Source: Chondrosia reniformis (Eukaryota > Porifera > Demospongiae > Chondrillida > Chondrillidae). Taken from it: DNA of 64,000 nucleotides. The notes beneath the pieces were generated by a model. The model was not told the DNA's origin. It did no database searches and saw nothing but the letters and a program-made list of their open reading frames with translations. The position numbers and the translations under genes are program-made. The DNA lies in NCBI GenBank assembly GCA_947172415.1, contig OX359200.1, positions 684,501 through 748,500 of the forward strand, written 5' to 3'. Positions 41,457 through 62,932 of this stretch are shown here, piece after piece. Position 1 is the stretch's first letter. The number at the start of each line of letters is the position of its first letter.

Positions 41457-42796
41457 TCAGTTCATCAATTTCTCCAATTTGGCAACTTCACTTTTTCTGG
41501 AATAAGTTTTCTCCTGAGAGGCAGAATAAGAAGATTGTGTAGTACATACACTCACACATGCATGTAAAAGACTGCATTTAAATGAAATGTAATAGTGAAA
41601 GCTTTCATACCTTTACACCAATGAGCATACAGACATATACGTACATACAATTTTAAGGCGTAAACATGCAACCTGTTGAATACAAAGATCTATGGGTTCT
41701 CCCTAAGTCGTAAGTCTGGGAATACAGTCTATTCTAGTTTTTCCTTTGCCTCCTATTGATGCCCACCATAGAAACTGTTGTTTTAGATCATTCATAGGCA
41801 GCCATTTTTTGCTGCCTCTCTATACTTGAAGGGTACTACCCTATTCACTGACTATATATTACTCTGAAAATGTATTTTGACATGGAGTCTAAGATTTATC
41901 AATTAGTACACTAGATTAGACAGTCATAAGACAACTGAACTAATGCAGAAAATGTCTAATAATCTAGCATACAAATAGTATTAATAATATAGGTTAGTAG
42001 TGTGAATGCTAAATTACTAATTTTTTTCATAATCACTGGAACATATTACTCCTGATCAGCCCAGTGGCATGTATGTATAATACTATAATGCAATACATTG
42101 CTAGTCAGATGTCATATGACTTACTGGTTGTACACAAAGTGGTTCATATTTGTTAATGTTGAGATCAAACAGAAACACCTTCCCATCAGCAGTGCAGGCA
42201 GCAAACACACTTGAGGCAAAGTGGGACCAAGCAATGTCACACATACCACTGTTCAAATCATGCGTGAACATGGGATCCTCTGAAGGGGAGAAAACACATC
42301 AATTTCTGTACACAAGTATATACTATCCTAATATACTTACAAGTATATATACATTATACATACATCATTACTTAATTAAGCTGCCAATATGTACATATAT
42401 ACGTACATACATATGTACATACGTACGTAGTACTTAATAAGGTTGGCTGTATGTACATACGTATGTTTGCATATAAATAGCACATCTCTGTTTAATTAGT
42501 TAGCCAGGCACCTAATTATGAGGCAGTTCATAAAAGGTACGTATTTAGTGGAGTTCTACCTGGCAACACCTAAAATGTGGTCACATCAGTTATGCAGACA
42601 CTTTTATAATTACGTAGATGTATGAGAAATCCATCATACGTATACGTATGTATATTCCTTAGCAAAAGGACATTCATTGTTTTAAGAATTACTTATACGT
42701 ACTGTATAAGCTACACCTTTACGTACGCATCTTCAAATCTTAGCTTGTTCTGTAAATCAGGTGGAGAAATGTGCCACCAAGCACAATGTATATTAA

Positions 42797-43186: not shown

Positions 43187-43295
43187 CTACAACTCTACCA
43201 TCACATACCTTAACTATTTTCCATACTACGTATACAACTCTGTCATCACATACGTTAACTATTATCCATACTAAGTACTCTGGCTCTGCCATCAG
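43187..43295. repeat. Imperfect tandem repeat next to DNAI1 exon
   Basis: Two to three copies of a roughly 45-bp unit with CAACTCTACCATCACATAC and TTAACTATTTTCCATACTA. The last copy merges into the DNAI1-like exon end (CTCTGGCTCTGCCATCAG), suggesting the exon edge was itself amplified. Confidence 0.65.
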
Positions 43296-43667
43296 AGGAC
43301 ACTGAGTAGAAGTTGAGGTTGTTATCCACGTCGTTCTCTTGCCAAGCAACCTGCCACGCCGGATCAGCGTGCTTGCCACTCTTAGCTGTGGACTGGTAGA
43401 GGGGCACACTTCCCTTCTTCTTCTACAAATTGTATTAATGTGGAATCACATTTGTCACGATACACAAACTACTTTAGGAAAATATATATATAAAGGTTCT
43501 AGCGTTATGAAAAAAAAAAAAAAAGCGCGTCCCAAGTGTGTTTGGATACTCAGTGGGTGGTTCCAAAGTAATCGCGATATGCTGACGATAAGAAAAAAGA
43601 AAAAAAACAGCGTTTGGAACGGTTTCCAAATCTTTTACAATAATCAGCAAAGATAGAAGAAAAAAGA

Positions 43668-43742
43668 CCAGTCACGTTAGCCAGCAGAGACTGCTGTTAC
43701 CGTCGAGCACCACGAGGAGGTGTGACTTGGATTTTGCTCGAC
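43668..43742 (-). ncRNA. HDV-like self-cleaving ribozyme (copy B)
   Basis: Minus-strand reading: P1 GTCGAGC (43742-43736) with GCTCGAC (43708-43702), extendable to 8 pairs. J1/2 is AAAAT. P2 is CCAAGTCA (43730-43723) with TGACTGG (43674-43668), with one bulged A. P3 is CACC/GGTG (43722-43719, 43711-43708) around L3 TCCTCGT (43718-43712). GG at 43701-43700 suits P1.1. P4 is CAGCAG/CTGCTG (43696-43691, 43687-43682) with a three-base loop. J4/2 is GCTAACG, with candidate catalytic C at 43680. GCTAA at J4/2 matches HDV closely. Length and topology equal copy A at 820-894, with P3/L3 identical and P1, P2, P4 wholly different but complementary. Predicted cleavage is 5' of 43742. Confidence 0.85.
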
Positions 43743-44043
43743 GCAGGGAGTTCACGTTTACCATCCACAATGCGAGCCGTCCTTCCATCGCTGGTCGTCT
43801 GGGGCCAGGATCGTTGGTAACGCCTAACTCGTGCAGTTTCGGCTTTGGTAGTCACAGAGTGACAGAACCAGCCTTATCCCTCCCCGGGTTCCGTTGTATC
43901 GATAAATCGATAATTGGTGAGCACATCCCCATGGCACCAACCGATACAGGGCAGCTACGGAACCTAGACACTACCAAGCCAACGAGTAAGGACTTACTCC
44001 CTTACCCGAGGCTCCACGCTGGCAGGCCTGAATGGTCATGTTA
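43743..44043 (+). pseudogene. GC-rich coding relic related to satellite inserts
   Basis: A 105-codon frame (43727-44044) covers this block, but only part may be ancestral coding sequence. It contains TIHNA, RP, PGSLVT, SFGFGS and IIGEHIPMAPTD. The five inserts in the satellite encode the diverged counterparts TIHDAQRPGSVVT and IIGEHVSMAPTD, the latter in a different frame followed by a stop. Acceptor-like GCAG (43743-43746) and donor-like GTAAGG (near 43986) could bound an exon. I do not recognise the protein. It abuts the ribozyme with opposite strand sense. Confidence 0.4.
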
Positions 44044-44896
44044 AAATGGACTATTTATACTCAACTCTGTGTGATGAAAGTGAAAAAAGAGAAAAAAACG
44101 ATTGCCTTCGTAATCGATCCAACTTTTGGCGTATTTGGTGGTATTGTAGGCTTGCTTCTCGCCTCACTGTACTACCTGTGCTCTTATGAATGACCAGATA
44201 TTAACTTGTATATATACAAAAGTGGTATATTAAGCACCAGCTTAATATATAAACTATAACACTATAATTGTATAAAATGTTAAGCACCAGCATACTTATT
44301 ATACAGTTCTCCGAATGTTAAGCACCAGCTTAATATATAAACTATAACACTATTATTGTATAAAATGTTAGGCACCAGCCATAATTATTATACATTTCTC
44401 CGTATGTTAAGCACCAGCTTAATATATAAATTATAACACTATTATTGTATAAAATGTTAAGCACCAGCCATAGTTATTATACATTTCTCCGTATGTTAAG
44501 CACCAGCAGTTCTCCGTATAGTACTCCTTAGTACGGTCGTCGGGCTTTCCAAGTTTGTTTTTCGATGGCTTCGAGATATTAGTCGTTCTAATGCAAAAGG
44601 TTAAATAAAAACATTCAAAAAGAAAGAAGAACAATCGGTTTTGGAAGGCGCTTCGCCTGAAGGTGCAGTTAACTTGGACTTGATCGTTTATGGCGAACTA
44701 GGTAATGTGCTCTGCATTAGGGAATGAATCAGTAAATATCGAGGTTAGACAGTTCGTTTTAATTCTGTCAGGATAGAAAAGCGTGGAATACATTGAAGCG
44801 TTGGTTAATCATAGCGACTCACAGCCAGGTTTAGCAGCACGTAGGCCATGCAATGATACAACTCCAATACGCGCTCGCATGTATAAACAATATATA
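44044..44896. other. Region between relic and satellite
   Basis: Includes the TTAAGCACCAG repeats at 44222-44520. A 30-codon hydrophobic frame near 44098-44193 (GGIVGLLLASLYYLC) could be a membrane-segment exon, but no splice site or start supports it. The rest shows no gene. Confidence 0.4.
44222..44520. repeat. Tandem repeat with TTAAGCACCAG motif
   Basis: At least five copies of TTAAGCACCAG, several joined to CTTAATATATAAACTATAAC, with a composite period of about 115 bp. The same 11-mer marks the elements at 40419-40737 and 63966-64000. Confidence 0.8.
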
Positions 44897-47800
44897 TCTC
44901 TCACCATACATTAAATTTGTATAGCAGAATCTAATGTACATTTAGTGCTGTAGCTCTGTCAATTGGAAAGATGTGAAGCTGAAACTTGCTGTCAGCATTC
45001 ACAGACATCCATAAAACATATCCAAAGAGTTTTACAAATTTTGATGTTCACTCATATTTGCCCTATCTCTCACAATACATTAAATTTGTATACAAGAATC
45101 TAATGTACATTTAGTGCTGTAACTCTGTCAATTGGAAAGATGTGGAGCTGAAACTTGCTGTCAGCATTCACAGACATCCTTAAAGCATATCCAAAGAGTT
45201 TTAAAAATTTTGATGTTCACTCATATTTGCCCTATCTCTCACCATACATTAAATTTGTATAGCAGAATCTAATGTACATTTAGTTCAATAACTCTGTCAA
45301 TTGGAAAGATGTGGAGCTGAAACTTGTTGTCAGCATTCACAGACATCCTTAAAGCATATCCAAAGAGTTTTGCAAATTTTGATGTTCACTCATATTTGCC
45401 TTATCTCTCACCATACATTAAATTTGTATAGCAGAATCTAATGTACATTTAGTGCTGTAGCTCTGTCAATTGGAAAGATGTGAAGCTGAAACTTGTTGTC
45501 AGCATTCACAGACATACATAAAGCATATCCAAAGAGTTTTACAAATTTTGATGTTCACTCATTTTTGCCCTATCTCTCACCATACGTACATTAAATTTGT
45601 ATAGCAGAATCTAATGTACATTTAGTGCTGTAACTCTGTCAATTGGAAAGATGTGAAGCTGAAACTTGCTGTCAGCATTCACAGACATCCATAAAACATA
45701 TCCAAAGAGTTTTACAAATTTTGATGTTCACTCATATTTGCCCTATCTCTCACAATACATTAAATTTGTATAGCAGAATCTAATGTACATTTAGTGCTGT
45801 AACTCTGTCAATTGGAAAGATGTGAAGCTGAAACTTGCTGTCAGCATTCACAGACATCCTTAAAGCATATCCAAAGAGTTTTACAAATTTTGATGTTCAC
45901 TCATATTTGCCCTATCTCTCACCATACATTAAATTTGTATACAAGAATCTATTGTACATTTAGTGCTGTAACTCTGTCAATTGGAAAGATGTGAAGCTGA
46001 AACTTGCTGTCAGCATTCACAGACATCCATAAAGCATATCCAAAGAGTTTTACAAATTTTGATGTTCACTCATATTTGCCCTATCTCTCACCATACATTA
46101 AATTTGTATACAAGAATCTAATGTACATTTAGTGCTGTAACTCTGTCAATTGGAAAGATGTGAAGCTGAAACTTGGTGTTAGCATTCACAGACATACATA
46201 AAGCATATCCAAAGAGTTTTACAAATTTTGATGTTCACTCATTTTTGCCCTATCTCTCACCATACATTAAATTTGTATGCAAGAATCTATTGCACATTTA
46301 GTGCTGTAACTCTGTCAATTGGAAAGATGTGAAGCTGAAACTGGCTGTCAGCATTCACAGACATCCTTAAAGCATATCCAAAGAGTTTTAAAAATTTTGA
46401 TGTTCACTCATATTTGCCCTATCTCTCACCATACATTAAATTTGTATACAAGAATCTAATGTACATTTAGTGCTGTAACTCTGTCAATTAGAAAGATGTG
46501 AAGCTGAAACTTGGTGTTAGCATTCACAGACATACATAAAGCATATCCAAAGAGTTTTACAAATTTTGATGTTCACTCATATTTGCCCTATCTCTCACCA
46601 TACATTAAATTTGTATGCAAGAATCTATTGTACATTTAGTGCTGTAACTCTGTCAATTGGAAAGATGTGAAGCTGAAACTTGCTGTCAGCATTCACAGAC
46701 ATCCATAAAACATATCCAAAGAGTTTTACAAATTTTGATGTTCACTCATATTTGCCCTATCTCTCACCATACATTAAATTTGTATACAAGAATCTATTGT
46801 ACATTTAGTGCTGTAACTCTGTCAATTGGAAAGATGTGAAGCTGAAACTTGCTGTCAGCATTCACAGACATCCATAAAGCATATCCAAAGAGTTTTACAA
46901 ATTTTGATGTTCACTCATATTTGCCCTATCTCTCACCATACATTAAATTTGTATACAAGAATCTAATGTACATTTAGTGCTGTAACTCTGTCAATTGGAA
47001 AGATGTGAAGCTGAAACTTGGTGTTAGCATTCACAGACATACATAAAGCATATCCAAAGAGTTTTACAAATTTTGATGTTCACTCATTTTTGCCCTATCT
47101 CTCACCATACATTAAATTTGTATGCAAGAATCTATTGCACATTTAGTGCTGTAACTCTGTCAATTGGAAAGATGTGAAGCTGAAACTGGCTGTCAGCATT
47201 CACAGACATCCATAAAACATATCCAAAGAGTTTTACAAATTTTGATGTTCACTCATATTTGCCCTATCTCTCACCATACATTAAATTTGTATACAAGAAT
47301 CTAATGTACATTTAGTGCTGTAACTCTGTCAATTAGAAAGATGTGAAGCTGAAACTTGGTGTTAGCATTCACAGACATACATAAAGCATATCCAAAGAGT
47401 TTTACAAATTTTGATGTTCACTCATATTTGCCCTATCTCTCACCATACATTAAATTTGTATGCAAGAATCTATTGTACATTTAGTGCTGTAACTCTGTCA
47501 ATTGGAAAGATGTGAAGCTGAAACTTGCTGTCAGCATTCACAGACATCCATAAAACATATCCAAAGAGTTTTACAAATTTTGATGTTCACTCATATTTGC
47601 CCTATCTCTCACCATACATTAAATTTGTATACAAGAATCTAATGTACATTTAGTGCTGTAACTCTGTCAATTGGAAAGATGTGAAGCTGAAACTTGCTGT
47701 CAGCATTCACAGACATCCATAAAGCATATCCAAAGAGTTTTACAAATTTTGATGTTCACTCATATTTGCCCTATCTCTCACCATACATTAAATTTGTATA

Positions 47801-50445
47801 CAAGAATCTAATGTACATTTAGTGCTGTAACTCTGTCAATTAGAAAGATGTGAAGCTGAAACTTGGTGTTAGCATTCACAGACATACATAAAGCATATCC
47901 AAAGAGTTTTACAAATTTTGATGTTCACTCATATTTGCCCTATCTCTCACCATACATTAAATTTGTATGCAAGAATCTATTGTACATTTAGTGCTGTAAC
48001 TCTGTCAATTGGAAAGATGTGAAGCTGAAACTGGCTGTCAGCATTCACAGACATCCATAAAACATATCCAAAGAGTTTTACAAATTTTGATGTTCACTCA
48101 TATTTGCCCTATCTCTCACCATACATTAAATTTGTATACAAGAATCTAATGTACATTTAGTGCTGTAACTCTGTCAATTGGAAAGATGTGAAGCTGAAAC
48201 TTGCTGTCAGCATTCACAGACATCCATAAAGCATATCCAAAGAGTTTTACAAATTTTGATGTTCACTCATATTTGCCCTATCTCTCACCATACATTAAAT
48301 TTGTATACAAGAATCTAATGTACATTTAGTGCTGTAACTCTGTCAATTGGAAAGATGTGAAGCTGAAACTTGGTGTTAGCATTCACAGACATACATAAAG
48401 CATATCCAAAGAGTTTTACAAATTTTGATGTTCACTCATTTTTGCCCTATCTCTCACCATACATTAAATTTGTATGCAAGAATCTATTGCACAGTTAGTG
48501 CTGTAACTCTGTCAATTGGAAAGATGTGAAGCTGAAACTGGCTGTCAGCATTCACAGACATCCATAAAACATATCCAAAGAGTTTTACAAATTTTGATGT
48601 TCACTCATATTTGCCCTATCTCTCACCATACATTAAATTTGTATACAAGAATCTAATGTACATTTAGTGCTGTAACTCTGTCAATTGGAAAGATGTGAAG
48701 CTGAAACTTGCTGTCAGCATTCACAGACATCCTTAAAGCATATCCAAAGAGTTTTACAAATTTTGATGTTCACTCATTTTTGCCCTATCTCTCACCATAC
48801 ATTAAATTTGTATACAAGAATCTAATGTACATTTAGTGCTGTAACTCTGTCAATTGGAAAGATGTGAAGCTGAAACTTGCTGTCAGCATTCACAGACATC
48901 CATAAAACATATCCAAAGAGTTTTACAAATTTTGATGTTCACTCATATTTGCCCTATCTCTCACCATACATTAAATTTGTATACAAGAATCTAATGTACA
49001 TTTAGTGCTGTAACTCTGTCAATTGGAAAGATGTGAAGCTGAAACTTGGTGTTAGCATTCACAGACATCCATAAAACATATCCAAAGAGTTTTACAAATT
49101 TTGATGTTCACTCATATTTGCCCTATCTCTCACCATACATTAAATTTGTATACAAGAATCTAATGTACATTTAGTGCTGTAACTCTGTCAATTGGAAAGA
49201 TGTGAAGCTGAAACTTGCTGTCAGCATTCACAGACATCCATAAAGCATATCCAAAGAGTTTTACAAATTTTGATGTTCACTCATATTTGCCCTATCTCTC
49301 ACCATACATTAAATTTGTATACAAGAATCTAATGTACATTTAGTGCTGTAACTCTGTCAATTGGAAAGATGTGAAGCTGAAACTTGCTGTCAGCATTCAC
49401 AGACATCCTTAAAGCATATCCAAAGAGTTTTACAAATTTTGATGTTCACTCATTTTTGCCCTATCTCTCACCATACATTAAATTTGTATACAAGAATCTA
49501 ATGTACATTTAGTGCTGTAACTCTGTCAATTGGAAAGATGTGAAGCTGAAACTTGCTGTCAGCATTCACAGACATCCATAAAACATATCCAAAGAGTTTT
49601 ACAAATTTTGATGTTCACTCATATTTGCCCTATCTCTCACCATACATTAAATTTGTATACCACAATCTAATTTACATTTAGCGCTGCAACTCTGTCAATT
49701 GGAAAGATATGAAGCTGAAACTTGGTGAAAGTATTCACAGACATCCATAAAACATATCCAAAGAGTTTTGCAAATTATGAATTTCGCTCACATTTGCACT
49801 ATCTCTCACCATACATTAAATTTGTATACAGAATCTAATGTACATTTAGTGTCGTAACTCTGTCATTTGGAAAACTATGAAGGTGAAACTTGGTGACAGC
49901 ATTCACAGACATCTATCAAGTTCATCCAGTGAGTTTCTGAAATCTTGATGTTCACTCACGTTTGCCCTATCCCTCACCATACATTAAATTTGTATACCAG
50001 AATCTAATGTACATTTAGTGCTGCTACTCTGTCAATAGGAACGCTATACTTGGTGTCAGCATTCACAGACATCCATTAAACATATCCAAAGAGTTTTGCA
50101 AATTTTGATGTTCACTCATATTTGCCCTATCTCTCACCATACATTAAATTTGTATACAAGAATCTAATGTACATTTAGTGCTGTAACTCTGTCAATTGGA
50201 AAGATGTGGAGCTGAAACTTGCTGTCAGCATTCACAGACATCCTTAAAGCATATCCAAAGAGTTTTACAAATTTTGATGTTCACTCATATTTGCCCTATC
50301 TCTCACCATACTTTAAATTTGTATACAAGAATCTAATGTACATTTAGTGCCGTAACTCTGTCAATTGGAAAGATATGAAGCTGAAACCTCTTGGCTGTAT
50401 GCACATATAGCTATACAGTATATCCTGCTAGTTTTGTAAAATTTC

Positions 50446-51110
50446 AAAAAAGGATACCCGAGTTACTGCAGATCGAAAAATACCCTATTCTAAAGTATTG
50501 AAGATTCGCCAACCACAAGCGTTTTCATAGGCAATTACTTTATTTAAATAGAAGATAAAACCTTATAATAGTAGGCCTACCTGGACACATCTCTATGGTG
50601 GTTGCGGTTCCCATAGAGGTTGGTAGCGCTTAGACTCTGAAGCTGTCTCCTAATCGGTTGGTGCCATAGAGACGTGCTCACCAATAATCCGGATTTCGGG
50701 GGGGTTCCACGTAATGTGGGATTGGCATCTGATATCTTAGGATTCATATGAGTCGGCCATATCGAGAAGAACTGGTTCTTCTCACGCAAGTGACACCCAA
50801 AGCTCAACTCGGCAGAGCGTTACCACCGATCCCGGCCTCTGAGCGTCGTGGATGGTAGCGTTCGGTATGGTCCAATTTTTTTCCTTTGGAGTTTCTTTAG
50901 CAGTCGATTGGCGATTTTTCACTTTAGCGACATCCATATATTATAATATGGACAGATACTACTTCAAAACAATCAAGTATTACAGAGTGAATATCCATGT
51001 GCATTAAAATCTTTAAAAGCGTTCTCGTCATTCAAATATACATATAAAAGTAACGTATTTTCAATATTCCCTTCTCTAGGTCGGCCATTTATATTATTAC
51101 GAAACTCCCG
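50446..51110 (-). repeat. Non-satellite insert in satellite, copy 1
   Basis: About 660 bp replacing part of a satellite unit. On the minus strand it carries ATGGCCGACC near its start, a lysine-rich frame beginning MDVAKVKNRQ, and a 76-codon frame (50807-50577) ending at a CCAG/GTAGGC donor-like site. Distantly related to 43743-44043. Confidence 0.85.
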
Positions 51111-52420
51111 TACATTAAATTTCTATACAAGAATCTAATGTACATTTAGTGCAATAACTCTGTCAATTGGAAAGATGTGGAGCTGAAACTTGCTGTCAGC
51201 ATTCACAGACATCCTTAAAGCATATCCAAAGAGTTTTACAAATTTTGATGTTCACTCATTTTTGCCCTATCTCTCACCATACATTAAATTTGTATGCAAG
51301 AATCTATTGCACATTTAGTGCTGTAACTCTGTCAATTGGAAAGATGTGAAGCTGAAACTGGCTGTCAGCATTCACAGACATCCATAAAACATATCCAAAG
51401 AGTTTTACAAATTTTGATGTTCACTCATATTTGCCCTATCTCTCACCATACATTAAATTTGTATACCACAATCTAATTTACATTTAGCGCTGCAACTCTG
51501 TCAATTGGAAAGATATGAAGCTGAAACTTGGTGAAAGTATTCACAGACATCCATAAAACATATCCAAAGAGTTTTGCAAATTATGAATTTCGCTCACATT
51601 TGCACTATCTCTCACCATACATTAAATTTGTATACAGAATCTAATGTACATTTAGTGTCGTAACTCTGTCATTTGGAAAACTATGAAGGTGAAACTTGGT
51701 GACAGCATTCACAGACATCTATCAAGTTCATCCAGTGAGTTTCTGAAATCTTGATGTTCACTCACGTTTGCCCTATCCCTCACCATACATTAAATTTGTA
51801 TACCAGAATCTAATGTACATTTAGTGCTGCTACTCTGTCAATAGGAACGCTATACTTGGTGTCAGCATTCACAGACATCCATTAAACATATCCAAAGAGT
51901 TTTGCAAATTTTGATGTTCACTCATATTTGCCCTATCTCTCACCATACATTAAATTTGTATACAAGAATCTAATGTACATTTAGTGCTGTAACTCTGTCA
52001 ATTGGAAAGATGTGGAGCTGAAACTTGCTGTCAGCATTCACAGACATCCTTAAAGCATATCCAAAGAGTTTTACAAATTTTGATGTTCACTCATATTTGC
52101 CCTATCTCTCACCATACATTAAATTTGTATGCAAGAATCTATTGTACATTTAGTGCTGTAACTCTGTCAATTGGAAAGATGTGAAGCTGAAACTTGCTGT
52201 CAGCATTCACAGACATCCATAAAGCATATCCAAAGAGTTTTACAAATTTTGATGTTCACTCATATTTGCCCTATATCTCACCATACTTTAAATTTGTATA
52301 CAAGAATCTAATCTACATTTAGTGCCGTAACTCTGTCAATTGGAAAGATATGAAGCTGAAACCTCTTGGCTGTATGCACATATAGCTATACAGTATATCC
52401 TGCTAGTTTTGTAAAATTTC

Positions 52421-53085
52421 AAAAAAGGATACCCGAGTTACTGCAGATCGAAAAATACCCTATTCTAAAGTATTGAAGATTCGCCAACCACAAGCGTTTT
52501 CATAGGCAATTACTTTATTTAAATAGAAGATAAAACCTTATAATAGTAGGCCTACCTGGACACATCTCTATGGTGGTTGCGGTTCCCATAGAGGTTGGTA
52601 GCGCTTAGACTCTGAAGCTGTCTCCTAATCGGTTGGTGCCATAGAGACGTGCTCACCAATAATCCGGATTTCGGGGGGGTTCCACGTAATGTGGGATTGG
52701 CATCTGATATCTTAGGATTCATATGAGTCGGCCATATCGAGAAGAACTGGTTCTTCTCACGCAAGTGACACCCAAAGCTCAACTCGGCAGAGCGTTACCA
52801 CCGATCCCGGCCTCTGAGCGTCGTGGATGGTAGCGTTCGGTATGGTCCAATTTTTTTCCTTTGGAGTTTCTTTAGCAGTCGATTGGCGATTTTTCACTTT
52901 AGCGACATCCATATATTATAATATGGACAGATACTACTTCAAAACAATCAAGTATTACAGAGTGAATATCCATGTGCATTAAAATCTTTAAAAGCGTTCT
53001 CGTCATTCAAATATACATATAAAAGTAACGTATTTTCAATATTCCCTTCTCTAGGTCGGCCATTTATATTATTACGAAACTCCCG
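52421..53085 (-). repeat. Non-satellite insert, copy 2
   Basis: Near-identical to copy 1, 1975 bp away, inside the higher-order repeat. Confidence 0.9.
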
Positions 53086-54395
53086 TACATTAAATTTCTA
53101 TACAAGAATCTAATGTACATTTAGTGCAATAACTCTGTCAATTGGAAAGATGTGGAGCTGAAACTTGCTGTCAGCATTCACAGACATCCTTAAAGCATAT
53201 CCAAAGAGTTTTACAAATTTTGATGTTCACTCATTTTTGCCCTATCTCTCACCATACATTAAATTTGTATGCAAGAATCTATTGCACATTTAGTGCTGTA
53301 ACTCTGTCAATTGGAAAGATGTGAAGCTGAAACTGGCTGTCAGCATTCACAGACATCCATAAAACATATCCAAAGAGTTTTACAAATTTTGATGTTCACT
53401 CATATTTGCCCTATCTCTCACCATACATTAAATTTGTATACCACAATCTAATTTACATTTAGCGCTGCAACTCTGTCAATTGGAAAGATATGAAGCTGAA
53501 ACTTGGTGAAAGTATTCACAGACATCCATAAAACATATCCAAAGAGTTTTGCAAATTATGAATTTCGCTCACATTTGCACTATCTCTCACCATACATTAA
53601 ATTTGTATACAGAATCTAATGTACATTTAGTGTCGTAACTCTGTCATTTGGAAAACTATGAAGGTGAAACTTGGTGACAGCATTCACAGACATCTATCAA
53701 GTTCATCCAGTGAGTTTCTGAAATCTTGATGTTCACTCACGTTTGCCCTATCCCTCACCATACATTAAATTTGTATACCAGAATCTAATGTACATTTAGT
53801 GCTGCTACTCTGTCAATAGGAACGCTATACTTGGTGTCAGCATTCACAGACATCCATTAAACATATCCAAAGAGTTTTGCAAATTTTGATGTTCACTCAT
53901 ATTTGCCCTATCTCTCACCATACATTAAATTTGTATACAAGAATCTAATGTACATTTAGTGCTGTAACTCTGTCAATTGGAAAGATGTGGAGCTGAAACT
54001 TGCTGTCAGCATTCACAGACATCCTTAAAGCATATCCAAAGAGTTTTACAAATTTTGATGTTCACTCATATTTGCCCTATCTCTCACCATACATTAAATT
54101 TGTATGCAAGAATCTATTGTACATTTAGTGCTGTAACTCTGTCAATTGGAAAGATGTGAAGCTGAAACTTGCTGTCAGCATTCATAGACATCCATAAAGC
54201 ATATCCAAAGAGTTTTGCAAATTTTGATGTTCACTCATATTTGCCCTATATCTCACCATACTTTAAATTTGTATACAAGAATCTAATCTACATTTAGTGC
54301 CGTAACTCTGTCAATTGGAAAGATATGAAGCTGAAACCTCTTGGCTGTATGCACATATAGCTATACAGTATATCCTGCTAGTTTTGTAAAATTTC

Positions 54396-55060
54396 AAAAA
54401 AGGATACCCGAGTTACTGCAGATCGAAAAATACCCTATTCTAAAGTATTGAAGATTCGCCAACCACAAGCGTTTTCATAGGCAATTACTTTATTTAAATA
54501 GAAGATAAAACCTTATAATAGTAGGCCTACCTGGACACATCTCTATGGTGGTTGCGGTTCCCATAGAGGTTGGTAGCGCTTAGACTCTGAAGCTGTCTCC
54601 TAATCGGTTGGTGCCATAGAGACGTGCTCACCAATAATCCGGATTTCGGGGGGGTTCCACGTAATGTGGGATTGGCATCTGATATCTTAGGATTCATATG
54701 AGTCGGCCATATCGAGAAGAACTGGTTCTTCTCACGCAAGTGACACCCAAAGCTCAACTCGGCAGAGCGTTACCACCGATCCCGGCCTCTGAGCGTCGTG
54801 GATGGTAGCGTTCGGTATGGTCCAATTTTTTTCCTTTGGAGTTTCTTTAGCAGTCGATTGGCGATTTTTCACTTTAGCGACATCCATATATTATAATATG
54901 GACAGATACTACTTCAAAACAATCAAGTATTACAGAGTGAATATCCATGTGCATTAAAATCTTTAAAAGCGTTCTCGTCATTCAAATATACATATAAAAG
55001 TAACGTATTTTCAATATTCCCTTCTCTAGGTCGGCCATTTATATTATTACGAAACTCCCG
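54396..55060 (-). repeat. Non-satellite insert, copy 3
   Basis: Near-identical to copies 1 and 2, again at 1975-bp spacing; the satellite variants that follow differ from those after copies 1 and 2 from about 55240. Confidence 0.9.
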
Positions 55061-58000
55061 TACATTAAATTTCTATACAAGAATCTAATGTACATTTAGT
55101 GCAATAACTCTGTCAATTGGAAAGATGTGGAGCTGAAACTTGCTGTCAGCATTCACAGACATCCTTAAAGCATATCCAAAGAGTTTTACAAATTTTGATG
55201 TTCACTCATTTTTGCCCTATCTCTCACCATACATTAAATTTGTATAGCAGAATCTAATGTACATTTAGTGCTGTAACTCTGTCAATTAGAAAGATGTGAA
55301 GCTGAAACTTGGTGTTAGCATTCACAGACATACATAAAGCATATCCAAAGAGTTTTACAAATTTTGATGTTCACTCATATTTGCCCTATCTCTCACCATA
55401 CATTAAATTTGTATGCAAGAATCTATTGTACATTTAGTGCTGTAACTCTGTCAATTGGAAAGATGTGAAGCTGAAACTGGCTGTCAGCATTCACAGACAT
55501 CCATAAAACATATCCAAAGAGTTTTACAAATTTTGATGTTCACTCATATTTGCCCTATCTCTCACCATACGTACAAGAATCTAATGTACATTTAGTGCTG
55601 TAACTCTGTCAATTGGAAAGATGTGAAGCTGAAACTTGCTGTCAGCATTCACAGACATCCATAAAGCATATCCAAAGAGTTTTACAAATTTTGATGTTCA
55701 CTCATATTTGCCCTATCTCTCACCATACATTAAATTTGTATACAAGAATCTAATGTACATTTAGTGCTGTAACTCTGTCAATTGGAAAGATGTGAAGCTG
55801 AAACTTGGTGTTAGCATTCACAGACATACATAAAGCATATCCAAAGAGTTTTACAAATTTTGATGTTCACTCATTTTTGCCCTATCTCTCACCATACATT
55901 AAATTTGTATGCAAGAATCTATTGCACATTTAGTGCTGTAACTCTGTCAATTGGAAAGATGTGAAGCTGAAACTGGCTGTCAGCATTCACAGACATCCTT
56001 AAAGCATATCCAAAGAGTTTTAAAAATTTTGATGTTCACTCATATTTGCCCTATCTCTCACCATACATTAAATTTGTATAGCAGAATCTAATGTACATTT
56101 AGTGCTGTAACTCTGTCAATTGGAAAGATGTGAAGCTGAAACTTGCTGTCAGCATTCACAGACATCCATAAAACATATCCAAAGAGTTTTACAAATTTTG
56201 ATGTTCACTCATATTTGCCCTATCTCTCACCATACATTAAATTTGTATACCACAATCTAATTTACATTTAGCGCTGCAACTCTGTCAATTGGAAAGATAT
56301 GAAGCTGAAACTTGGTGAAAGTATTCACAGACATCCATAAAACATATCCAAAGAGTTTTGCAAATTATGAATTTCGCTCACATTTGCACTATCTCTCACC
56401 ATACATTAAATTTGTATACAGAATCTAATGTACATTTAGTGTCGTAACTCTGTCATTTGGAAAATTATGAAGGTGAAACTTGGTGACAGCATTCACAGAC
56501 ATCTATCAAGTTCATCCAGTGAGTTTCTGAAATCTTGATGTTCACTCACGTTTGCCCTATCCCTCACCATACATTAAATTTGTATACCAGAATCTAATGT
56601 ACATTTAGTGCTGCTACTCTGTCAATAGGAACGCTATACTTGGTGTCAGCATTCACAGACATCCATTAAACATATCCAAAGAGTTTTGCAAATTTTGATG
56701 TTCACTCATATTTGCCCTATCTCTCACCATACATTAAATTTGTATACAAGAATCTAATGTACATTTAGTGCTGTAACTCTGTCAATTGGAAAGATGTACA
56801 TGTGGAGCTGAAACTTGCTGTCAGCATTCACAGACATCCTTAAAGCATATCCAAAGAGTTTTACAAATTTTGATGTTCACTCATATTTGCCCTATCTCTC
56901 ACCATACATTAAATTTGTATGCAAGAATCTATTGTACATTTAGTGCTGTAACTCTGTCAATTGGAAAGATGTGAAGCTGAAACTGGCTGTCAGCATTCAC
57001 AGACATCCATAAAACATATCCAAAGAGTTTTACAAATTTTGATGTTCACTCATATTTGCCCTATCTCTCACCATACATTAAATTTGTATACAAGAATCTA
57101 ATGTACATTTAGTGCTGTAACTCTGTCAATTGGAAAGATGTGAAGCTGAAACTTGCTGTCAGCATTCACAGACATCCATAAAGCATATCCAAAGAGTTTT
57201 ACAAATTTTGATGTTCACTCATATTTGCCCTATCTCTCACCATACATTAAATTTGTATACAAGAATCTAATGTACATTTAGTGCTGTAACTCTGTCAATT
57301 GGAAAGATGTGAAGCTGAAACTTGGTGTTAGCATTCACAGACATACATAAAGCATATCCAAAGAGTTTTACAAATTTTGATGTTCACTCATTTTTGCCCT
57401 ATCTCTCACCATACATTAAATTTGTATGCAAGAATCTATTGCACATTTAGTGCTGTAACTCTGTCAATTGGAAAGATGTGAAGCTGAAACTGGCTGTCAG
57501 CATTCACAGACATCCATAAAACATATCCAAAGAGTTTTACAAATTTTGATGTTCACTCATATTTGCCCTATCTCTCACCATACATTAAATTTGTATACAG
57601 AATCTAATGTACATTTAGTGTCGTAACTCTGTCAATTGGAAAACTATGAAGGTGAAACTTGGTGACAGCATTCACAGACATCTATCAAGTTCATCCAGTG
57701 AGTTTCTGAAATTTTGATGTTCACTCACGTTTGCCCTATCTCTCACCATACATTAATTTTGTATACAGAATCTAATGTACATTTAGTGCTGCAACTCTGT
57801 CAATTGGAAAGCTATGAAGCTGAAACTTGGTGTCAGCATTCACAGACATCCATTAAACATATCCAAAGAGTTTTACAAATTTTGATGTTCACTCATATTT
57901 GCCCTATCTCTCACCATACATTAAATTTGTATAGCAGAATCTAATGTTCATTTAGTGCTGTAACTCTGTCAATTGGAAAGATGTGAAGCTGAAACTTGCT

Positions 58001-58222
58001 GTCAGCATTCACAGACATCCATAAAACATATCCAAAGAGTTTTGCAAATTTTGATGTTCACTCATATTTGCCCTATATCTCACCATACTTTAAATTTGTA
58101 TACAAGAATCTAATGTACATTTAGTGCCGTAACTCTGTCAATTGGAAAGATATGAAGCTGAAACCTCTTGGCTGTATGCACATATAGCTATACAGTATAT
58201 CCTGCTAGTTTTGTAAAATTTC

Positions 58223-58887
58223 AAAAAAGGATACCCGAGTTACTGCAGATCGAAAAATACCCTATTCTAAAGTATTGAAGATTCGCCAACCACAAGCGTT
58301 TTCATAGGCAATTACTTTATTTAAATAGAAGATAAAACCTTATAATAGTAGGCCTACCTGGACACATCTCTATGGTGGTTGCGGTTCCCATAGAGGTTGG
58401 TAGCGCTTAGACTCTGAAGCTGTCTCCTAATCGGTTGGTGCCATAGAGACGTGCTCACCAATAATCCGGATTTCGGGGGGGTTCCACGTAATGTGGGATT
58501 GGCATCTGATATCTTAGGATTCATATGAGTCGGCCATATCGAGAAGAACTGGTTCTTCTCACGCAAGTGACACCCAAAGCTCAACTCGGCAGAGCGTTAC
58601 CACCGATCCCGGCCTCTGAGCGTCGTGGATGGTAGCGTTCGGTATGGTCCAATTTTTTTCCTTTGGAGTTTCTTTAGCAGTCGATTGGCGATTTTTCACT
58701 TTAGCGACATCCATATATTATAATATGGACAGATACTACTTCAAAACAATCAAGTATTACAGAGTGAATATCCATGTGCATTAAAATCTTTAAAAGCGTT
58801 CTCGTCATTCAAATATACATATAAAAGTAACGTATTTTCAATATTCCCTTCTCTAGGTCGGCCATTTATATTATTACGAAACTCCCG
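58223..58887 (-). repeat. Non-satellite insert, copy 4
   Basis: Same insert 3827 bp after copy 3 with the same junctions, so it spread with flanking satellite and not by new insertion. Confidence 0.9.
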
Positions 58888-61800
58888 TACATTAAATTTC
58901 TATACAAGAATCTAATGTACATTTAGTGCAATAACTCTGTCAATTGGAAAGATGTGGAGCTGAAACTTGCTGTCAGCATTCACAGACATCCTTAAAGCAT
59001 ATCCAAAGAGTTTTACAAATTTTGATGTTCACTCATTTTTGCCCTATCTCTCACCATACATTAAATTTGTATGCAAGAATCTATTGCACATTTAGTGCTG
59101 TAACTCTGTCAATTGGAAAGATGTGAAGCTGAAACTTGGTGTTAGCATTCACAGACATACATAAAGCATATCCAAAGAGTTTTACAAATTTTGATGTTCA
59201 CTCATATTTGCCCTATCTCTCACCATACGTACATTAAATTTGTATGCAAGAATCTATTGTACATTTAGTTCAATAACTCTGTCAATTGGAAAGATTTGAA
59301 GCTGAAACTTGTTGTCAGCATTCACAGACATACATAAAGCATATCCAAAGAGTTTTACAAATTTTGATGTTCACTCATATTTGCCCTATCTCTCACCATA
59401 CGTACATTAAATTTGTATACAAGAATCTAATGTACATTTAGTTCAATAACTCTGTCAATTGGAAAGATGTGAAGCTGAAACTGGCTGTCAGCATTCACAG
59501 ACATACATAAAGCATATCCAAAGAGTTTTACAAATTTTGATGTTCACTCATTTTTGCCCTATCTCTCACCATACATTAAATTTGTATAGCAGAATCTAAT
59601 GTACATTTAGTGCTGTAACTCTGTCAATTGGAAAGATGTGAAGCTGAAACTTGCTCTCAGCATTCACAGACATCCATAAAACATATCCAAAGAGTTTTAC
59701 AAATTTTGATGTTCACTCATATTTGCCCTATCTCTCACCATACATTAAATTTGTATAGCAGAATCTAATGTACATTTAGTGCTGTAACTCTGTCAATTGG
59801 AAAGATGTGAAGCTGAAACTTGCTCTCAGCATTCACAGACATCCATAAAACATATCCAAAGAGTTTTACAAATTTTGATGTTCACTCATATTTGCCCTAT
59901 CTCTCACCATACATTAAATTTGTATACCACAATCTAATTTACATTTAGCGCTGCAACTCTGTCAATTGGAAAGATATGAAGCTGAAACTTGCTGTCAGCA
60001 TTCACAGACATCCATTAAACATATCCAAAGAGTTTTGCAAATTTTGAAGTTCACTCATATTTGCCCTATATATCTCTCACCATACATTAAATTTGTATAG
60101 CAGAATCTAATGTACATTTAGTGTCGTAACTCTGTCAATTGGAAAGATATGAAGCTGAAACTTGGTGACAGCATTCAAAAACATCCATAAAACATATCCA
60201 AAGAGTTTTACAAATTTTGATGTTCACTCATATTTGCCCTATCTCTCACCATACGTACATTAAATTTGTATACCAGAATCGAATGTACATTTAGTGCTGC
60301 AACTCTGACAATAGGAAAGCTATGAAGCTGAAACTTGGTGTCAGCATTCACAGACATCCATTAAACATATCCAAAGAGTTTTGCAAATTTTGATGTTCAC
60401 TCATATTTGCCCTATCTCTCACATTACATTAAATTTGTAAACCAGAATCGAATGTACATTTAGTGCTACAACTCTGACAATAGGAAAGCTATGAAGCTGA
60501 AACTTGGTGACAGCATTCACAGACATCCATAAAATATATCCAAAGAGTTTTGCAAATTTTAAAGTTCACTCATATTTGCCCTATATCTCACCATACATTA
60601 AATTTGTATACCAGAATCTAATGTACATTTAGTGCTGCAACTCTGACAATAGGAAAGCTATGAAGCTGAAACTTGGTGAAAGCATTCACAGACATCTATC
60701 AAGTTCATCCAGTGAGTTTCTGAAATTTTGATGTTCACTCATATTTGCCCTATCTCTCACCATACGTACATTAAATTTGTATACCAGAATCGAATGTACA
60801 TTTAGTGCTGCAACTCTGACAATAGGAAAGCTATGAAGCTGAAACTTGGTGAAAGCATTCACAGACATCCATAAAACATATCCAAAGAGTTTTGCAAATT
60901 ATGAATTTCGTTCACATTTGCCCTATCTCTCACCATACATTAAATTTGTATACAGAATCTAATGTACATTTAGTGTCGTAACTCTGTCAATTGGAAAACT
61001 ATGAAGGTGAAACTTGGTGACAGCATTCACAGACATCTATCAAGTTCATCCAGTGAGTTTCTGAAATTTTGATGTTCACTCACGTTTGCCCTATCTCTCA
61101 CCATACATTAATTTTGTATACAGAATCTAATGTACATTTAGTGCTGCAACTCTGTCAATTGGAAAGCTATGAAGCTGAAACTTGGTGTCAGCATTCACAG
61201 ACATCCATTAAACATATCCAAAGAGTTTTACAAATTTTGATGTTCACTCATATTTGCCCTATCTCTCACCATACATTAAATTTGTATGCAAGAATCTAAT
61301 GTACATTTAGTGCTGTAACTCTGTCAATTGGAAAGATGTGAAGCTGAAACTGGCTGTCAGCATTCACAGACATCCATAAAACATATCCAAAGAGTTTTAC
61401 AAATTTTGATGTTCACTCATATTTGCCCTATCTCTCACCATACATTAAATTTGTATAGCAGAATCTAATGTACATTTAGTGCCGTAACTCTGTCAATTGG
61501 AAAGATGTGAAGCTGAAACTGGCTGTCAGCATTCACAGACATCCATAAAGCATATCCAAAGAGTTTTACAAATTTTGATGTTCACTCATATTTGCCCTAT
61601 CTCTCACATTACATAAAATTTGTATACCACAATCTAATTTACATTTAGCGCTGCAACTCTGTCAATTGGAAAGATATGAAGCTGAAACTTGGTGTCAGCA
61701 TCCACAGACATCGATCAAGTTCATCCAGTGAGTTTCTGAAATTTTGATGTTCACTCATATTTGCCCTATCTCTCACCATACGTACATTAAATTTGTATAC

Positions 61801-62932
61801 CAGAATCGAATGTACATTTAGTGCTGCAACTCTGACAATAGGAAAGCTATGAAGCTGAAACTTGGTGTCAGCATTCACAGACATCCATTAAACATATCCA
61901 AAGAGTTTTGCAAATTTTGATGTTCACTCATATTTGCCCTATCTCTCACATTACATTAAATTTGTAAACCAGAATCGAATGTACATTTAGTGCTACAACT
62001 CTGACAATAGGAAAGCTATGAAGCTGAAACTTGGTGACAGCATTCACAGACATCCATAAAATATATCCAAAGAGTTTTGCAAATTTTAAAGTTCACTCAT
62101 ATTTGCCCTATCTCTCACCATACATTAAATTTGTATACCAGAATTGAATGTACATTTAGTGCTGCAACTCTGACAATAGGAAAGCTATGAAGCTGAAACT
62201 TGGTGAAAGCATTCACAGACATCCATAAAACATATCCAAAGAGTTTTGCAAATTATGAATTTCGTTCACATTTGCCCTATCTCTCACCATACATTAAATT
62301 TGTATACAGAATCTAATGTACATTTAGTGTCGTAACTCTGTCAATTGGAAAACTATGAAGGTGAAACTTGGTGACAGCATTCACAGACATCTATCAAGTT
62401 CATCCAGTGAGTTTCTGAAATTTTGATGTTCACTCACGTTTGCCCTATCTCTCACCATACATTAATTTTGTATACAGAATCTAATGTACATTTAGTGCTG
62501 CAACTCTGTCAATTGGAAAGCTATGAAGCTGAAACTTGGTGTCAGCATTCACAGACATCCATTAAACATATCCAAAGAGTTTTTACAAATTTTGATGTTC
62601 ACTCATATTTGCCCTATCTCTCACCATACATTAAATTTGTATAGCAGAATCTAATGTACATTTAGTGCTGTAACTCTGTCAATTGGAAAGATGTGAAGCT
62701 GAAACTGGCTGTCAGCATTCACAGACAGCCATAAAGCATATCCAAAGAGTTTTACAAATTTTGATGTTCACTCATATTTACCCTATATCTCACCATACTT
62801 TAAATTTGTATACAAGAATCTAATGTACATTTAGTGCCGTAACTCTGTCAATTGGAAAGATATGAAGCTGAAACCTCTTGGCTGTATGCACATATAGCTA
62901 TACAGTATATCCTGCTAGTTTTGTAAAATTTC

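Follow-up and report, generated by a model that had tools for sequence, protein, structure and literature searches.

Candidate multi-copy non-coding RNA genes in the sponge Chondrosia reniformis with an HDV-like ribozyme at their predicted 3′ ends

HDV-like ribozymes are widespread, and the jobs that they perform outside viruses and retroelements are mostly unknown. In the excerpts of the two reports cited here, the ribozyme of the R2 and L1Tc retroelements sits at the 5′ end (PMC8256844, PMC4035085); theta ribozymes, in the excerpted text of a third, are phage HDV-like ribozymes that are postulated to process tRNA 3′ trailers (PMC10879173). Our searches of the open-access literature brought up no description of an HDV-like ribozyme in a sponge, nor of one that forms the 3′ end in a family of eukaryotic RNA genes. 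Here we analyse a 64,000-nucleotide stretch of the genome of the sponge Chondrosia reniformis (hereafter, the window) that contains two such elements on its minus strand, each belonging to one of three families (A, B and C) that are repeated throughout the genome. From their sequences, we consider that these are probably multi-copy non-coding RNA genes whose 3′ end is formed by a ribozyme of their own rather than by poly(A).

The family A element occupies positions 43668–43742 (−), where the earlier note had placed an HDV-like ribozyme with the J4/2 sequence GCTAA and a perfect P1 of 7–8 bp; both the sequence and the ribozyme-model search that the note had suggested bear this out. With cmscan (4227 Rfam families against the 64 kb), 43742–43670 (−) matches RF02682 at 47.0 bits (gathering threshold 44; E = 1.5e-5), which is the sole gathering-level Rfam match in the window; RF00094 and RF01787 also match this place, below their cut-offs. 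Read by eye on the minus strand, P1 is GTCGAGC/GCTCGAC (7 bp; 43742–43736/43708–43702), P2 is AGTCAC/GTGACT (6 bp, plus CC/GG across a bulge; 43727–43722/43675–43670), P3 is ACC/GGT (43721–43719/43711–43709), P4 is CAGCAG/CTGCTG (43696–43691/43687–43682), and J4/2 is GCTAA (43681–43677). Within J4/2, position 43680 is what we take to be the likely catalytic C, by analogy with C75 of HDV; the analogy with HDV also predicts self-cleavage between 43743 (−1) and 43742 (+1), and the letter at −1 is C in 28/28 A copies. Nested folding without the pseudoknot gives P1, P3 and P4, with a z of −1.5, and 19/200 shuffles fold equally well. When the flanks were shuffled around a fixed core (400,000 trials for each family), a P1 + P4 + P2 rule, which is our own and lenient definition, was satisfied in 51 (A), 137 (B) and 4 (C) trials. 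Judged by sequence and fold, the family A element of the window is confirmed as a genuine HDV-like ribozyme.

Also in the window is a family B element at 819–894 (−), the other ribozyme of the earlier note. Rfam leaves it sub-threshold (RF02682, 26.6 bits at 894–819, below gathering), but it is a member of a repeated family, and the family parse assigns it a P1 of GGGGCAC/GTGCCCT, a P2 of ATGTACTT/AAGTACAT and a P4 of CAACTC/GAGTTG. The double-pseudoknot layout (P1 of about 7 bp, P2, a 3-bp P3, P4, and the core letters of L3 and J4/2) is present in family A by RF02682, and in all three families by parse.

The genome-wide count of related copies that the earlier note had proposed was made in one genome, that of C. 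reniformis (117,379,552 bases in 15 contigs), which comprises 14 chromosomes and the mitochondrion according to the excerpted text of its report (PMC12181767), where an RNA run, ERR10177766, is also listed. The 14-nt ribozyme core ACCTCCTCGTGGTG, which is common to families A, B and C, occurs exactly at 359 places, against 4 for the reversed pattern; the 15-mer CACCTCCTCGTGGTG occurs at 191 places (reverse, 0), and the C-type core GTACTTCTACCTCCTCGTGGTG at 160 (reversed, 0). The copies are related, so these counts do not represent independent events. RF02682 itself matches at least 61 places in the genome, 59 of them above cut-off, while RF00094 and RF01787 give no matches in this genome or in 14 control genomes. 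None of these 14 controls yields an RF02682 match, a result that is uninformative on other eukaryotes because the same 14 also yield neither U6 nor U2.

We read 91 distinct loci, counting copies that share an identical 400 nt once, and sorted them by the letter that precedes the core (A, 29; B, 36; C, 26); 13/19 further CCTCCTCGYGG places are, by eye, also C-type ribozymes. The bodies of B and C match one another in the same order and on the same strand (best nhmmer E values 4e-7 and 2.4e-6, in databases of a few dozen sequences). With nhmmer, the A body has no match of meaningful E value to the B or C bodies, the exception being a fragment of A body in opposite orientation that adjoins a C copy at the 5′ end of locus L087 (E = 7e-10). 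Broken copies are found at L045, L097, L098, L055, L087 and L089, the first three of these being broken 5′ or internally, and one P3 pair is lost in L142. A scan of prokaryote genomes found no B/C ribozyme, and four viral contigs carry the core; in one of them (L135), a 7-bp P1 and a GGCTAAT J4/2 were recognised by eye at 204–227 (−), with a tRNA-Leu at 543–619 on the same strand. To the eye, L135 and perhaps L133 look like a theta-type ribozyme rather than the sponge RNAs.

Loss of P1/P2 complementarity in other genomic copies, which the earlier note named as grounds for refutation, was looked for, and the outcome favours a ribozyme: P1 is fully paired (7/7) in 27/28 (A), 35/36 (B) and 25/26 (C) parsed loci. 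Furthermore, P1 has undergone double changes from GGGGCAC/GTGCCCT to GGGACAC/GTGTCCT in two C loci (L076, L077) and again in L117; P4 shows swaps between B and C (UA/CG and CG/AU), and alternative P4 helices were seen by eye in L116, L117, L125 and L131. In a set of ten ribozymes drawn from families B and C, 99.1% of helix cells are paired, against 34.5–60.0% with the partners slid. Nine cells are changed on both sides, which is reached by 0/500 shuffles; three pairs carry such two-sided changes, which 43/500 shuffles match, and the further pair types are equalled by 495/500, two of the five covariation measures being weak. These data indicate that, within their limited depth, the pairing of P1 and P4 has been kept by compensatory change.

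In the body upstream of the ribozyme, substitutions keep predicted pairs hardly above chance in B (P 0.17–0.19), and only weakly so in C (P 0.055). These values come from alignments of 33/36 B loci (A1, without L051, L097 and L101) and 25/26 C loci (A2, without L065), with L098, L078 and L089 additionally omitted from the single-sequence body-pairing test. An alifold count had appeared to support covariation in the B body, largely on account of one misaligned, broken copy (L097) that supplied most of the double changes; we set it aside, the single-sequence test not being significant. One B body hairpin does compensate (CTCGGCT/AGCCGAG versus CTTAGTT/AACTAAG).

Another key result concerns the position of the ribozyme, which in the intact A, B and C copies that we read is the final part of a conserved block of approximately 290–575 nt that starts at a TATA-like box. 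Conservation spans from about 380 (A), 600 (B) or 700 (C) nt upstream of the core to shortly past the ribozyme, and in the alignments of all three families the letters start to diverge almost directly after the last P2 strand, at a distance of a few nt. Median pairwise identity (80 random pairs per family) is 0.98 for the A body, 0.57 upstream and 0.64 downstream; for family B the corresponding values are 0.99, 0.61 and 0.59. For family C, represented here by the 22 copies with a recognised intron, they are 0.90 (exon 1), 0.68 (intron), 0.92 (exon 2), 0.53 (upstream) and 0.57 (downstream). These identities, and the ORF, promoter and poly(A) counts given below, refer to loci in which the anchor has at most one mismatch (A, 28/29; B, 33/36; C, 24/26). 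The association of body and ribozyme also holds when it is approached from the body: a ribozyme lies beside the A body in 30/30 loci, these being the best 30 of 40 listed matches (locus L013 is the same place as L002), and beside the B body in 32/32 checkable matches of 40 listed (30 exact cores, and 2 with one or two changes). In both cases the matches checked were the best-scoring ones, and those of B were compared by eye.

In the window, the predicted family A body extends for 287 nt from its start to the cleavage site (43743–44029, −), and that of family B for approximately 555 nt (895–1449, −), beginning at the A of TCAG (1449). The GC-rich block that the earlier note described next to the ribozyme is indeed there; it is the conserved RNA body. 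The B bodies differ from one another by gaps of 1, 2, 5 and 15 nt. The C body is about 570 nt long after removal of a short intron, a GT...AG gap of 73–118 nt that is kept in 22/24 C bodies and that points to polymerase II.

Three further observations concern the surroundings. Downstream of the family A gene, at 43285–43430 (−), lies part of a dynein axonemal intermediate chain 1 exon (phmmer E = 4e-16), which substantiates the DNAI1 relic of the earlier note; its nearness to the ribozyme is incidental, since some A genes took this fragment with them when they were duplicated. It accompanies the A gene, mostly together with an 18-bp minisatellite, under 16 locus identifiers (L002–L054) that represent 11 distinct places, that of the window included. 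The right end of the window is occupied by long, interrupted arrays of a 169-bp satellite (44895–62874), and a palindromic stretch rich in TACGTA/GTAC (42387–42487) gives weak matches to microRNA families on both strands, and is probably of low complexity.

The start of each block resembles a promoter. The family A copy has a TATA box TATAAATA at 44052–44059 (−) and an initiator-like TCAG at 44028–44031 (−); the family B copy has TATAAAA at 1473–1479 (−), 30 nt ahead of its predicted start. By hand count, the A of TCAG falls 30 nt past the first T of the TATA box in both window copies; the comparison of copies used for this reading left aside L045, L097, L055 and L089. A TATA-like box is present at a fixed place in 28/28 A, 33/33 B and 24/24 C copies, against 6/56, 10/34 and 6/12 control windows, respectively, so that the contrast for C is weak. 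Its letters differ among copies (TATAAAAG, CATTAAAAG, CTTAAAAAGG, TATATAAAGG, AATAAATAG) and its position is kept, as expected if it is function rather than sequence that is maintained. Further upstream, the family B copy in the window carries GCGCGGGAA (1496–1504, −), CACGTG (1530–1535, no strand assigned) and TGACGTCA (1542–1549, no strand assigned), which by their letters we take to be putative E2F-like, E-box and CRE sites. The putative CRE, E-box and E2F-like sites occur in 31/33, 31/33 and 27/33 B copies, against 0/34, 1/34 and 0/34 controls; among C copies the E2F-like site occurs in 17/24 (control, 0/12), the CRE in 10/24 and the E-box in 0/24, and none of the three occurs in any of 28 A copies. 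Cell-cycle control might be exerted through the E2F-like and CRE sites.

As to the polymerase that would transcribe family A, its pattern of T-runs (see below) fits polymerase III type 3, and polymerase III may be used. As regards a polymerase III promoter of the snRNA type, with a PSE upstream of the TATA box, no motif was seen in common between A and the upstream regions of two U6-like and three U2 genes; the motif that the three U2 upstream stretches do share is not in A (both comparisons by eye). We also set aside a spliced-leader reading of A, which carries GGTAAGG near its 5′ end, because B and C do not have such a start.

The bodies are apparently non-coding. The longest ATG-initiated ORF is 26 amino acids in 27/28 A bodies, 34 in 30/33 B bodies, and 36–64 in the 15 C bodies listed; an Rfam search of 14 loci (E up to 0.1) found nothing besides the ribozymes. 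A terminator-like run of six Ts directly follows the family A ribozyme in the window (43660–43665, −). No A body contains a T-run above 3, and a T6–T10 run lies within about 100 nt downstream in 28/28 A copies; C bodies contain T-runs of 4–7. After the T-run of A genes there occurs, once or twice, a 21-nt motif with a palindromic end, TTATCGTCAGCATATCGCGAT (43571–43591, −, in the window), which could be a binding site for a termination factor; with at most 5 mismatches allowed, 27/28 A copies have it in the 600 nt that follow them, whereas the stretches upstream have it in 0/28. Poly(A) signals in the 200 nt past the ribozyme number 0/28 for A (upstream control, 12/28) and 4/33 for B (10/33), and past the C ribozyme they are present in 4/8 countable loci (control, 5/8).

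We envisage the following sequence of events for these putative genes. Transcription would begin about 30 nt past the TATA box, yielding a short, strongly conserved RNA body (approximately 287 nt for A, 555 nt for B, and 570 nt for C after intron removal). The HDV-like ribozyme would then fold as a double pseudoknot and cut at its own first G. The freed body would end precisely in a 2′,3′-cyclic phosphate and lack a poly(A) tail, and the short trailer left behind would carry a 5′-OH; in family A, transcription would then halt at the T-run.

The dispersal of the copies has to be weighed against this proposal. The blocks might be non-autonomous mobile elements (SINE-like, LTR-like or other) in which promoter and ribozyme serve a replication cycle, the sponge genes being only their copies. 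Consistent with this are the 359 dispersed core matches, the near-identical bodies within unrelated flanks, the existence of a few copies that are broken 5′ or internally (L045, L097, L098), and the occurrence of HDV-like ribozymes in retroelements, as described in excerpts of PMC8256844 and PMC4035085. On the other hand, the ribozyme is at the 3′ end rather than the 5′ end, the promoter elements are kept although the letters upstream of them diverge, many flanks diverge gradually without a sharp joint, and 22/24 C copies keep the intron and hence do not derive from cDNA. We also read the intervals that separate three pairs of adjacent copies (L069–L071). A Pfam scan of 26/32 ORFs of at least 70 amino acids gave no match to reverse transcriptase or gag (the 6 ORFs left out lie inside A units), and instead revealed three pieces of host genes: two in an interval flanked by A copies (glycosyltransferase 10, E = 6e-18; inositol monophosphatase, E = 5e-12) and one, PIH1 (E = 2e-7), in an interval flanked by B copies. 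No Pfam family matches a 194-aa ORF in L070. A retroelement carrier, the possibility raised in the earlier note, is not supported: what is conserved is the upstream side of the ribozyme, from a promoter up to the last ribozyme helix. This arrangement led us to reject a retroelement with a 5′ ribozyme, of the R2/L1Tc type, for which the three intervals read also gave no reverse transcriptase match in the 26 scanned ORFs; a solo-LTR reading was likewise rejected, the three neighbouring pairs flanking host-gene pieces or nothing recognised, and not gag-pol. Intron retention and interval content argue against a cDNA-borne element, and mobility at the DNA level remains compatible with them; overall, we regard a mobile-element origin as unlikely, although it deserves some weight.

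Should the fold be a relic, or a purely structural or protective 3′ domain that no longer cuts, one might point to the invariance of P2 across the parsed A copies and to the drift of P4 and J4/2 among C copies. Such a reading appears improbable to us in view of the compensation in P1 and P4, the retention of the J4/2 C and of L3 in nearly all parsed copies, and the presence of the ribozyme in all 62 checkable A and B body matches (the best-scoring ones). Still less do we favour a ribozyme that serves the downstream RNA, through R2-style release of a 5′ end or a translation start: HDV-like ribozymes do release the 5′ ends of R2 and L1Tc RNA, in the excerpts available of PMC8256844 and PMC4035085, but the sequence downstream of the sponge ribozymes is unconserved (the medians of 0.64, 0.59 and 0.57 given above) and in A it contains the T-run, making this very improbable.

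If non-coding RNA genes with ribozyme-made 3′ ends are indeed what these families are, they may amount to hundreds of sponge genes, partly with E2F-like/CRE promoters, and to a poly(A)-independent eukaryotic pathway of 3′-end formation alongside those of snRNAs and histones; we hold this broader proposition tentatively, at a little under an even chance. Were it true, it would offer a native and testable eukaryotic case of ribozyme-made RNA ends, provide hundreds of natural variants for structure–function work, and draw attention to a novel RNA, perhaps an abundant one, of an animal from an early branch.

The sponge ribozymes can be placed among known systems as follows. With described HDV-like ribozymes (drz; RF02682, HDV-F-prausnitzii, and RF00094) they share the P1-P2-P3-P4 layout and the J4/2 GCTAA, and family A exceeds the RF02682 gathering threshold; in contrast, B and C fall below the Rfam cut-off, the copies are gene-like and number in the hundreds, and a sponge is absent from the hosts listed in the excerpted text of PMC8256844. 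With R2, L1Tc/ingi and other non-LTR elements they have in common the ribozyme class and many dispersed copies; the ribozyme of R2 and L1Tc/ingi, as excerpted in the reports cited, lies 5′ in the element, whereas that of the sponge families closes a conserved block, with no reverse transcriptase match in the intervals read. The nearest precedent in the literature searched, so far as its excerpted text describes them, is the phage theta ribozymes beside tRNAs (PMC10879173), whose position, like that of the sponge ribozymes, would suit them to form a non-coding RNA's 3′ end; they differ in belonging to phage and acting on tRNA, no tRNA being found in the window, whereas the sponge families have an animal host and a body of 290–575 nt. 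The ribozyme belongs to a known class, and the novelty would lie in its use. Replication-dependent histone genes resemble the sponge families, as these are proposed here, in being multi-copy, TATA-driven, under E2F-type control, and furnished with a 3′ end without poly(A); unlike the sponge genes, which would be ended by a ribozyme, they are protein-coding and are ended by a stem-loop and the U7 snRNP.
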